Source of the DNA: Sulfurovum sp.
GTDB taxonomy: Bacteria > Campylobacterota > Campylobacteria > Campylobacterales > Sulfurovaceae
Reading direction: 5' to 3'
Length of the DNA: 43,431 nt
Assembly: GCA_024763175.1 (NCBI GenBank)
Contig: JANTGA010000005.1
Coordinates: forward strand, 1-43,431
Numbering within the stretch: position 1 is the stretch's first letter; every line of letters starts with the position of its first letter. This document shows positions 32,116 through 36,578 of this stretch, piece after piece. Both the position numbers and the translations under genes were made by a program. The notes under the pieces were generated by a model. That model did no database searches and had not been told where the DNA came from. It worked only from the letters and a program-made list of their open reading frames with translations.

Positions 32116-33621
32116 TCACCGCTCACGATAGCGATCCACCAAAGTTTTCAGTACACTCTTGTCGATCACGATGCTTTTGTCTCCTCCTTTTTTGGCGTAG
32201 AGGTCGCGTACCATCGCTTCTACCTGGGGGTTATCGTTGGTGTGGGGGTAGAGGATCTTGAGGGCTTCGCTCTCTCTCATCGGGCTGATGCGTCTTTTCC
32301 ATTTCAGCAGCGGCAGGAGCTTGAGTGTGCCGAGTGTCAGGATGATGCCGCCGCCAAAGGCGAGTAGCAGCATCCAGGGATCAGCGGCGAAGGCGAAGGC
32401 TTCTGCTGCCTTAGGCTGCTCTGCCTGGACCGGCTCTGCTGATGAAGCTGCCCTTGCTGCGGGAGGCTCAGCTGCGTGAACGACGGTCGCTGCTGCTTTT
32501 CCTCCCTTGACAGTGATCTGATGGGCTTGTGTTTGCAGCGTTTTGACCTTGCCGCTCTTGTAGTCAAAGAGTGAAAAAGAGCGGGACGGTATCGTGAAGT
32601 TGTGGTCTGCGATGAAGACATACTTCTTCTCCCAACTACTGATCAGTTCTGCACCCGAGAGACGACTCTCTACTTTGGCATCGTCACTGTAGATCGTGAC
32701 ACCGTCGATATCATAGCTGGGTCCTTCGAACTCTTCGAGATTGCCCTCTCCGCTGATCGTGATCGTCAGGTTGACCGGTTTGTTGGCTTTGACTTTGACT
32801 GCATCGATCGTCTCTTTGAGTGTCAAGTCACCGACGAGATCAGTCTCTTCCGGTGCAGGCTTGACGTCGACATTGACACGACTGGAGACGATCTGACTCC
32901 AGACCGGCGTATCGAAAAAAGTACCGAAAAAATCATCCTTTCGGCGACCGCGCTCAGCGACCTTGGCTCTGGCGGGTTCGATCGTCAAGTTGCCTTCGTA
33001 CTTGGGCGTCAAAAGATAGCGCAGCTCATGAACCAGATAACCCCCCTTGTGGTAAGTTTTCTCCTCTCCGACCTCCTTGACAAAAAAATCTTTCACCTCC
33101 GGCTTCTGGTAGGCAACTTTCATCAAGTCTGATTGCCTGGATTCGTTGAAATAGACTGAAAGCAGGAGCGGCTCACCGACATAGACTGACTTCTTGTTCG
33201 TTACCATATCGAGACTGAACTTCCGGGATGTACCGGGCGTAGGAGCTGCTGCCTTGACTACCTTGATCTCGATGGGATCTGTCTTGAGTGTCTCACCGTC
33301 TACCTGAATCGAAAAGGCAGGAATAGTCATCGCCTTATTCGGCGTAAAGGTCACGATCTGTTTTTTGACATGCTCCTGTGTCATTTTGCCGTTGATCATC
33401 TTCATGGAGGATTGTGACATGTTGGAGACACCCTCGACAGGATAGCTTCCGACTCTGTCGATCACAGGAAACTGTACATTTGACCCTGATGCTTCCAGGG
33501 TCACCCTGACACTGTTGCCTTCAACGACATCAGTGTCATCAACTGTCGCTTTGACGCTTCCGGCAAAGAGCAGCACAACTGCAACTTGCCACAAGAGTAT
33601 TGTTTGCCATAATCGTTTCAC
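32116..33621 (-). CDS. batD: BatD family protein
   Basis: 501 aa; signal peptide, N-terminal VEGNSVRVTLEASGSNVQFPVI, C-terminal TM; last gene of the Bat operon. Confidence 0.88.
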   Translation of the reverse strand: MKRLWQTILLWQVAVVLLFAGSVKATVDDTDVVEGNSVRVTLEASGSNVQFPVIDRVGSYPVEGVSNMSQSSMKMINGKMTQEHVKKQIVTFTPNKAMTIPAFSIQVDGETLKTDPIEIKVVKAAAPTPGTSRKFSLDMVTNKKSVYVGEPLLLSVYFNESRQSDLMKVAYQKPEVKDFFVKEVGEEKTYHKGGYLVHELRYLLTPKYEGNLTIEPARAKVAERGRRKDDFFGTFFDTPVWSQIVSSRVNVDVKPAPEETDLVGDLTLKETIDAVKVKANKPVNLTITISGEGNLEEFEGPSYDIDGVTIYSDDAKVESRLSGAELISSWEKKYVFIADHNFTIPSRSFSLFDYKSGKVKTLQTQAHQITVKGGKAAATVVHAAEPPAARAASSAEPVQAEQPKAAEAFAFAADPWMLLLAFGGGIILTLGTLKLLPLLKWKRRISPMRESEALKILYPHTNDNPQVEAMVRDLYAKKGGDKSIVIDKSVLKTLVDRYRER

Positions 33622-33676: not shown

Positions 33677-34645
33677 TTACCATGGGTTGACCTCATTATC
33701 CCGTTTGGGTTTTTTAGCTTCTCCCGCCTGATACATCATCGAGGGAAGCTTTTTTTGATTGAGCTTTTTGAGCAGTCTGTTGAGCTCTTTCTGGGTCATT
33801 TGCTGCTCTTTGCTCATCTTTTGCTTTTTCTGCTCTGAACCGGCACTGCTTCCCTTCTCTTTTTGCTGATCTTTTTTCTCTCTCTGAGACTGCTGCTGAT
33901 CTTTTTGGCCTTTTTGATTTTTCTGCTGTTGCTTTTGCTGCTCGTTTTTCTTTTGATTGGGCTTCTGCTTCTGCTGATCTTTTTCACTTTTTTTCTGTTG
34001 ATTGGGCTTCTTTTGCTGATCTTTTTGATTTTGATCTTTTTTCTTTTGATTTTTTTGTTGCTTTTTCTGATCTTTTTGCTCTTTTTTCTTTTGATCCTTG
34101 TTTTGATCCTTGTTTTTCTGCTGATCTTTTTTCTTTTGGTCTTGTTTTTTCTGATTCTGTTTCTTTTGCTCTTGCTGCTTTTTCATCTTTTTGGCCAGCT
34201 CCAGGTTGTGACGGGTATCCTCGTCTTCTCTTTGTTTCAGTGCCTCCTCATACGCTTTGATCGCTTGATCGTATTTTTTTTCCTGGAAATAGCTGTTGCC
34301 TACATTGTGAAGCCGCTGCGTCTCATCGATTCCTTTGGCTCTCTTGTAGGCTTCGATCGCCTGATCGTATTTTTTGTCTTTATAGTAACTGTTTCCCAGA
34401 TCATAGTCGACTTCGGGAGACTTTTTGTTCAGCTTCTTCAGCAAGGCGGCACTCTTTTGGTACTGTTTTCCCTCATACGCTTTGTTGGCTTCATCGATCG
34501 TTTTGAAGTCCATCAGACCAGCATCTGCAAGAGTCAGCAGTGAGCAGTGAGCAGTGAGCAGCGTAAGCAAAAGATGTCGTTCCAAAAAGAAAAAAAATGC
34601 CGATCTCCTCCCTCGGACTCTTGATTTTGAATTTCGAACTTTCAT
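33677..34645 (-). CDS. TPR protein of the Bat operon with K/Q/D-rich low-complexity tail
   Basis: 322 aa; GLMDFKTIDEANKAYEGKQYQKSA and TPR units NSYYKDKKYDQAIEAYKRA / NSYFQEKKYDQAIKAYEEA, then a long KKDQQKN-type tract. GGAGGAG RBS and ATGA overlap with the upstream VWA gene. Confidence 0.88.
   Translation of the reverse strand: MKVRNSKSRVRGRRSAFFFFLERHLLLTLLTAHCSLLTLADAGLMDFKTIDEANKAYEGKQYQKSAALLKKLNKKSPEVDYDLGNSYYKDKKYDQAIEAYKRAKGIDETQRLHNVGNSYFQEKKYDQAIKAYEEALKQREDEDTRHNLELAKKMKKQQEQKKQNQKKQDQKKKDQQKNKDQNKDQKKKEQKDQKKQQKNQKKKDQNQKDQQKKPNQQKKSEKDQQKQKPNQKKNEQQKQQQKNQKGQKDQQQSQREKKDQQKEKGSSAGSEQKKQKMSKEQQMTQKELNRLLKKLNQKKLPSMMYQAGEAKKPKRDNEVNPW
34534..34561. repeat. heptanucleotide tandem repeat TGAGCAG (3 perfect copies plus 1 variant)
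   Basis: Plus strand tcagcag-tgagcag-tgagcag-tgagcag, inside the signal-peptide coding region of the Bat TPR gene. Confidence 0.9.
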
Positions 34646-35661
34646 TTTTCTCCTCCATCCGCAATGATTTGCTTCTCTTGTTTCTCTCTTCTTGGCATCG
34701 AAGCAAAGGCTATCAAGAGCAGTATGATCCCCCCGCCCAGCGGATAGTAGAAGAGCTCGACGCGGTCTTTGATCTTGACGGCGGCCTGTTGTGTCGCCTT
34801 GTGCCCGGATCGGATCGTAGATACCAGCTGATCGATATCCTCCCGTCCATTACTCGCGACGACATACGCGCCGCCTGTCTCCAGGGCGATTTTTCCCAAT
34901 GCATCGTTGCGCTGGCTGATCGCGATCGTTCCATCTTTTTTTGCCAGGGGTTTGCCGTTGGCATCCAGGACCGGAGCACCCTTCTCTGTGCCGACGAGGA
35001 CAACATAGAGTTCGATACCGCTCTCTTTCATCTCCTCGGCAAAGCCCGCAAGTGCCTCCTTATCGCCGCCATCACTGAAAACGATCATCATTTTTGGCTT
35101 CTTCTCTTCAAGCATCTTTGCTGACAGAGACCCTAGTGCCGAAAAGTCCGTCGATCCCATGTTGATGTATTGATCATTGACACGTTCAACGATCATCTTG
35201 AGTGTCTCCTTATCGCTGCTGAAGGGGGCCAGCACGAAGGAGACATGGGCGAATGCCACTACAGCGATCTCATCACTGGGCATCTCATCAAAGAGTGTCG
35301 TCATCTTCTTTTTGGCGAACTCTAGCCTGCTGGGATAGTCATCCTTGCTTCGCATCGACCCGGAGATATCCAGTGCCGTCAACAGACTCAACCCCTTCAC
35401 CTCTACCAGTTTATCAGCCTTCTCGACCACCGGTCTGGCGATCGCGACGATCATCAAAAAGAGAGCAGCAAAGATAAGGATGTTACGCACAACCATCGGA
35501 ACAGCATCGCTGCCTGCACTGAGTCTCTCCAGTACTTTCTCATCAAAGAGCCTCGAAATGCGGTCTTTGTTTGTCGAGATAAGCAGTGCGAAGATGACAA
35601 AAGGAATCACCAATCCCCAGAAAAGATAGGGATGCACAAAAAGAATACTATGCATCATCAA
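34642..35661 (-). CDS. VWA domain protein (BatB-like)
   Basis: 339 aa; TM helices and MIDAS LDISGSMRSKDDYPSRLEFAKKK; IVFSDGGDKEA. Confidence 0.9.
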   Translation of the reverse strand: MMMHSILFVHPYLFWGLVIPFVIFALLISTNKDRISRLFDEKVLERLSAGSDAVPMVVRNILIFAALFLMIVAIARPVVEKADKLVEVKGLSLLTALDISGSMRSKDDYPSRLEFAKKKMTTLFDEMPSDEIAVVAFAHVSFVLAPFSSDKETLKMIVERVNDQYINMGSTDFSALGSLSAKMLEEKKPKMMIVFSDGGDKEALAGFAEEMKESGIELYVVLVGTEKGAPVLDANGKPLAKKDGTIAISQRNDALGKIALETGGAYVVASNGREDIDQLVSTIRSGHKATQQAAVKIKDRVELFYYPLGGGIILLLIAFASMPRREKQEKQIIADGGEK

Positions 35662-36578
35662 GCTCCTCTCGCATTTCTAAAGTAGACAAAGAACAGCAGC
35701 GCCAAAATCGCCAGAAACAGTGGGTAGATATAGAGATAGGTGTGCTGCACAACCTTCTTGTCATTGAGTTGACTCGCCTCAAGCTTATCGATCTCCCGAT
35801 AAATCTCAGTGAGCATCTCACTGTTATGAGCACCATAGGCTCTCCCTTTCCCTGCATCGGCCAAAGCCTGCAGATAGCGCCCATTGTAGTCGCGAGGACT
35901 CCCTATTCCGATCGTATAGAGTTTGACATCACTTTTGGCGACGATATTTTTGATATCTTCGAAAGCGACTTTGCTCATATTGTCCCGGCCATCCGTCAGC
36001 AGGATAGCAATCTTGGATTTGGCCTTGCTTTTACTCAGCATTCCGTAGGTCTGTACCAGGGCATCGTTGATCGCGGTGCGCTTCCCGGCGATACCCAGCT
36101 GCTGATATGCTACGATATCTTTGAGAAACTTCTTCTCGAATGTCAAAGGCGACGCGATGAAAGCAACATCCGCGAAGGTCACAACACCGATACGGTCATT
36201 TGACCGCTTATCGATAAAGTCATTGACCACCTCTTTGACCACATCAAATTTGTTTTTTCTGATATCATTGGGGTCAAAGCCTCTTTGCCGCATCGAATCA
36301 CTCGCATCAATCACCAGGACGATATCGCGCCCCTCTTTGTGACTGTTTTGATACTCTTTTGTCAAGACGGGAGAAGCCAATGCCACCACGGCGCCCACGA
36401 TGCCTATCCACTTGAGCCACAGCAGAAGGGAACTCTTTTTTGCACCGCCCTGGAGAAGCAGTCTCTCGATATGGGGAAAATAGATCGCTCTGCTCCGCTC
36501 CCGGCAATATCTCGCACAGAGCAGAAAAAGCAGAATGATCCCCAATAGATACGGATATTCAAAACTAAACTGACTCAT
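35658..36578 (-). CDS. batA: VWA domain protein (BatA-like)
   Basis: 306 aa; MIDAS VIDASDSMRQRGFDPND; ILLTDGRDNMS; overlaps the neighbouring VWA gene. Confidence 0.92.
   Translation of the reverse strand: MSQFSFEYPYLLGIILLFLLCARYCRERSRAIYFPHIERLLLQGGAKKSSLLLWLKWIGIVGAVVALASPVLTKEYQNSHKEGRDIVLVIDASDSMRQRGFDPNDIRKNKFDVVKEVVNDFIDKRSNDRIGVVTFADVAFIASPLTFEKKFLKDIVAYQQLGIAGKRTAINDALVQTYGMLSKSKAKSKIAILLTDGRDNMSKVAFEDIKNIVAKSDVKLYTIGIGSPRDYNGRYLQALADAGKGRAYGAHNSEMLTEIYREIDKLEASQLNDKKVVQHTYLYIYPLFLAILALLFFVYFRNARGA

Follow-up and report, generated by a model that had tools for sequence, protein, structure and literature searches.

In a contig of Sulfurovum sp. (43,431 nt, the whole of the stretch analysed and called the window below), the core of the leader of a BatC-like TPR protein was found to be encoded by a short heptanucleotide array. 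We consider it probable that this array supplies the BatC signal peptide with its hydrophobic core, and that it occupies an old site at which the units turn over in place and in concert, rather than being a programmed switch. Its role in the signal peptide is suggested by its position and composition. Arrays of this kind recur across species in the leader of batC and, in fewer cases, in that of batD, in one codon register and with different, internally homogeneous units. Seven-base arrays are common in bacteria, and to our knowledge no role or origin has been generally accepted for them; here, one orthologous site shows them in use as protein sequence, in the predicted export signal of BatC.

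The window contains a Bat (aerotolerance) operon that is in no way unusual in itself. It shows the known order BatA-BatB-BatC-BatD and runs from a MoxR-type AAA ATPase through a DUF58 protein, a short protein with no Pfam match, two VWA proteins and the TPR protein to BatD. The BatA-like and BatB-like VWA proteins (35658..36578 and 34642..35661), the BatC-like TPR protein (33677..34645; 322 aa with a Lys/Gln-rich tail; Pfam TPR_1, 4.3e-15) and BatD (32116..33621; Pfam BatD, 3.8e-28), whose leader in relatives can also bear heptamer arrays, are all encoded on the reverse strand. The TPR protein was identified as BatC by its position between BatB and BatD, its match to NCBIfam TPR_BatC_Lepto (7e-8) being below the cut-off of that model. 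Its tail (window positions 33700-34200) is a very Lys/Gln/Asp-rich stretch of low complexity, with many short repeats.

The BatC leader (MKVRNSKSRVRGRRSAFFFFLERHLLLTLLTAHCSLLTLADAG; 34517..34645, reverse strand) comprises 43 codons ahead of the conserved LMDFKTI. As described in an earlier note on this DNA, its ATG at 34645 is served by the Shine-Dalgarno site GGAGGAG (34650..34656, reverse strand) and overlaps the batB stop codon as ATGA. As a putative signal peptide, the leader has the layout MKVRNSKSRVRGRR... LLTLLTAHCSLL ... ADA, and its best 12-residue hydropathy is 1.81. Its core (h-region), LLTAHCSLLT, is encoded by CTGCTCA x3 + CTGCTGACT at 34532..34561 of the reverse strand. The repeat to which the note had drawn attention was evident both from direct reading of the coding strand from 34561 to 34532 (CTGCTCACTGCTCACTGCTCACTGCTGACT) and from TRF (period 7, 4.3 copies, score 53). 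All three forward (pyrimidine-strand) frames of the array give one cyclic, stop-free heptapeptide, AHCSLLT, because 7 and 3 are coprime and this strand is free of stops; the three reverse (purine-strand) frames all contain stops. Thus, since every frame reads the same stop-free heptapeptide, an array in pyrimidine orientation always supplies a hydrophobic stretch, and the coprimality of 7 and 3 provides an easy path by which non-coding repeats can turn into signal peptides.

BatC orthologs were present in 140 of 175 family genomes at E <= 1e-30, and leaders were compared at 115 loci, mostly from this family and some from other families of the same order. The family is probably Sulfurovaceae, because a protein of G022 is 88% identical to one from a Sulfurovum record (L153). 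When a fixed 30 nt whose end is four codons ahead of the conserved glycine-plus-mature start was scored, period-7 identity reached at least 0.75 in 19 of the 115 leaders, compared with 0.02 expected from a codon shuffle, and none of the 115 reached that value at periods 4-6 or 8-11. With weaker arrays and that of G013 included, a period-7 array is found in the signal-peptide core of 24 of the 115 leaders. The same ten codons are covered in 23 of these 24 arrays, the exception being G013, whose array lies two codons closer to the mature start. The alternative suggestion of the note, that the repeat had been inserted into an ancestral signal peptide and displaced it, is at odds with these orthologs, in which the array itself is the core and its register is conserved.

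About a dozen distinct units were found among the array-bearing batC leaders. GCTCACT is shared by the window, G022 and G126, and the closest relative, G002, carries ACTCATT. Three genomes each contain ATTCACT (G135, G139 and G120), TTTCATT (G034, G023 and G032) and ATCTACT (G111, G151 and G080), and four contain CTTCACG/T (G109, G154, G104 and G153). The remaining units are TCTCATT (G131), GCTCATT (G155), ATTGGCT (G114), ATGCATT (G092), ATTNATT (G150) and ACYC-type units (G013 and G091). Different units give different peptides at one register.

Judging from the sequences, the units of the batC array evolve in concert, because identity between units is 0.86 within an array and 0.59 between species, and unit position is irrelevant: between species, identity was 0.595 for matching and 0.592 for non-matching positions. 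When synonymous codons were drawn at random with the peptide kept, period-7 identity fell to 0.47, compared with the 0.86 observed (0 of 1000 draws), and therefore it is the DNA, not the peptide, that carries the repeat. This makes it most improbable that the array is a neutral passenger or a product of protein-level convergence, with a conserved hydrophobic peptide (e.g., LFTIHYSLFT) encoded by DNA that is periodic by accident. Some decayed leaders do retain the peptide, as in G149, but different units encode different peptides in the same register. Leaders with no clear array had a period-7 identity of 0.368, compared with 0.309 for the null (0 of 1000), which suggests that decayed arrays may be among them. 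Decay by substitution was seen in close kin (G149 and G134), and in general the differences between leaders of close relatives were point decay or indels that kept the frame, and not the gain or loss of one unit.

On a tree built on BatB plus BatC, with the array columns left out, 17 changes in the presence or absence of the array and 13 changes of unit were counted. The patchy presence might reflect repeated gain instead of repeated decay. The batC site is probably old, its units turning over in concert, and the unit appears to have been replaced about a dozen times with the register unchanged. The simplest route would be slippage within the array, by which units are gained and lost and after which selection would bring back the frame and a number of about four units; alleles of 3 or 5 units would then be loss-of-function states, purged or at most rare. 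Block replacement could have acted at the batC site in place of slippage. Over its first 60 nt, mature batC is 90% identical between the close sister genomes G023 and G091, yet the identity of their units is 0.32, and from these alignments the difference resembles the replacement of a block more than slippage in steps. A broader version, which we put forward as rather unlikely, is that an unrecognised process other than simple slippage continually replaces entire blocks at heptamer-array sites across the family, changing the unit and keeping the register. If true, such block rewriting would remodel signal-peptide cores and protein termini, and enzyme loops as well, in concert.

The replacement of the unit between G023 and G091 and the patchy presence of the array are also in agreement with repeated independent insertion or ectopic gene conversion, by which batC would receive ready-made arrays and only those in the hydrophobic orientation would survive. 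Heptamer arrays are dispersed, with dozens in many genomes, and in G135 the ATTCACT unit of batC is also that of nearly all the other listed arrays. For its part, the window's genome contains exact GCTCACT arrays at C3, where the array touches the stop codon of a gene that is carB-like by eye, and at C5 and C130, as well as degenerate array traces at C91 and C2. Since GCTCACT arrays are also present at C3 and C130, the batC array of this genome may have been copied from elsewhere. Against this explanation, the batC unit was found nowhere else in five genomes, some of whose assemblies are 80-90% complete (ATTGGCT in G114, ATCTACT in G080, ACTCATT in G002 and CTTCACG in G104 and G153), so that turnover there was local. 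Moreover, the common register of 23 of the 24 arrays would be unexpected under random insertion, and no common flanking sequence was found outside the array. We therefore hold the arrival of ready-made arrays to be a possible but minor contender, and in-place turnover remains the reading that we prefer.

The note had also proposed a switch between two leaders, and the dependence of the frame on repeat length, on which that proposal was built, is correct, as are its translations of both frames. With the 4 units present, ATG 34645 reads through the leader into LMDFKTI. With 3 units, translation from ATG 34645 would end after 34 codons and the in-frame start becomes ATG 34658, fusing MEEKNESSKFKIKSPREEIGIFFLFGTTSFAYAAHCSLLTLADAG to LMDF of the TPR protein, as the note had calculated; a T7 run with 4 units has the same effect on ATG 34658. 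At 5 units, no leader in frame is obtained from either start, and at 7 units the ATG 34645 frame is restored. An alternative start is thus available for just one of the two frame-shifted states. That start (34656..34658, reverse strand) is open and overlaps the Shine-Dalgarno site of batC by one base, with no such site of its own, and amounts to an 'AT' preceding the GGAGG of the real start; this context is common to 14 of 110 orthologs, array-bearing or not. The T8 run is present as noted (34597-34590, reverse strand) within the leader. As a hypermutable tract it was rejected, runs of this kind being ordinary in the genome: A or T runs of at least 8 number 8 in the window and 57 in the 440 kb of stretches in which the window's genome was sampled.

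A contingency locus at which repeat number, together with T8 length, sets batC on, off or to the ATG 34658 leader within a population would be consistent with this arithmetic and with the past gain and loss of units that turnover at the site implies. The unit, moreover, is not a multiple of 3 and lies inside a gene, as is looked for in phase-variable loci, and heptanucleotide tracts are established or proposed mediators of phase variation in Haemophilus influenzae (PMC2651432). No off state was found, however, among the 115 ortholog leaders: all were in frame, including the 24 with arrays, for which 0 of 24 places the upper 95% bound at about 12%. The batC array has about four units, the last imperfect, compared with the 13-38 copies, varying between strains, of the hmw1A and hmw2A tracts (PMC2651432). 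These long tracts resemble the array in having 7-base units whose number can alter the frame or promoter spacing. The lack of a Shine-Dalgarno site at ATG 34658 and the lack of a candidate start for the other shifted state also argue against a switch. The same holds for the GCTCACT array in the N-terminus of tilS (TIGR02432), a gene that is essential in most bacteria. Phase switching at batC is thus not supported so far, and we regard it as improbable; the batC array is better read as a signal-peptide core undergoing turnover.

The batC array belongs to a dispersed class of heptamer arrays of 3-5 units, which are found mostly at gene edges and less frequently within genes. NYTCAYT arrays of at least 3 units were found in 95 of the 175 family genomes, in a search whose reversed-pattern control is not independent for these units. 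Among 60 arrays from five genomes, 41 are intergenic, most of these having 3-5 units and a start or stop codon no more than about 50 nt away. Eleven are situated close to the N-terminus of a forward ORF, some of these ORF starts being mechanical and maybe too early. Density varied: period 7 accounted for 40 of the 50 short arrays found in 240 kb of G027, mostly intergenic and some in inverted pairs, and the window's genome had just 3 period-7 arrays (score >=13) in 440 kb, compared with 0 after a one-step Markov shuffle. The exact GCTCACT array also occurs in Acidobacteriota, Verrucomicrobia, Bacteroidota, Cyanobacteria, Planctomycetes, Proteobacteria and others. A mobile element with shared flanks was considered and rejected, the other genomic copies having the array alone in common.

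The batD leaders, intended as an array-free control, bore arrays in 7 of 49 cases at a threshold of at least 17/23, one or two of them (e.g., L053 and L050) in purine orientation and outside the core; the phenomenon is therefore not confined to batC. Together, the batC and batD leaders offer a comparative system for the turnover of short heptamer arrays and for whether turnover becomes a switch. Coding arrays were found at other sites as well. Two genera have the GCTCACT array as the N-terminus of tilS, represented by the window's genome (L376, G000:C130), where a TTG or GTG start would be required, and by G135 (L366, C166). In a D-cysteine desulfhydrase-like enzyme, an in-frame array lies at one site in a loop in the window's genome (L375, G000:C2), G022 (L341) and G126 (L373), with units that are different or decayed among the three species. 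The C-terminus of a TtcA-like protein bears arrays with different units in G022 and G092, and a PgmG-type mutase (L342, G022:C14) has an array-derived insertion, SSLLIPHSSLE, directly before the active-site loop (ITGSHNP).

Heptameric repeats at gene edges have been described in Xanthomonas and Nostoc, where GGGAATC and GGGGA(C/T)T repeats, most often of four units, lie near stop and start codons between co-directional genes, and both unit and length vary per intergenic site (PMC4692102). The arrays described here are alike in their 7-base units, mostly 3-5 in number, and in their position at gene edges, but have NYTCAYT-like instead of G-rich units, a subset of them is coding and forms signal-peptide cores, and orthologous arrays change unit while keeping the codon register. 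TAACTGA direct repeats, which are patchily distributed across phyla (Beggiatoaceae, Cyanobacteria and Bacteroidetes) and occur in 2-6 copies just upstream of start codons in the best-studied genome (PMC4679880), are likewise short heptamer arrays of patchy distribution. That system, however, has one fixed unit with related heptamers rare, whereas here there are many related units, some of them coding. A literature search for papers tying heptanucleotide repeats to signal peptides returned none that was relevant.

The array can also abolish the boundary between batB and batC, because in three members of genus g5 (G023, G032 and G091; L014, L018 and L095) the two genes form one open frame through it. 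This parallels the batB-batC fusion reported for Leptospira biflexa (PMC3557215). An RNA hairpin sought at the batB-batC junction of the window was weaker than those of shuffled sequences (z +1.5). In G139, G155 and G131, the leader array does pair with a purine array located where batB ends. Elsewhere, purine-orientation arrays (L346, L357, L368, L377 and others) often start in or at the upstream stop codon and overlap the next start, which suggests a role or an origin at gene junctions. In the array-rich genome G027, heptamer arrays were observed as inverted pairs in intergenic DNA, at spacings of 20-100 nt (G027:C1:215313-215408, 188966-189056 and 219139-219294), and a perfect 151-nt ATTCCTC array of about 21 units lies in a short ORF (G027:C1:99208-99359), so that long arrays occur there alongside those of 4 units.
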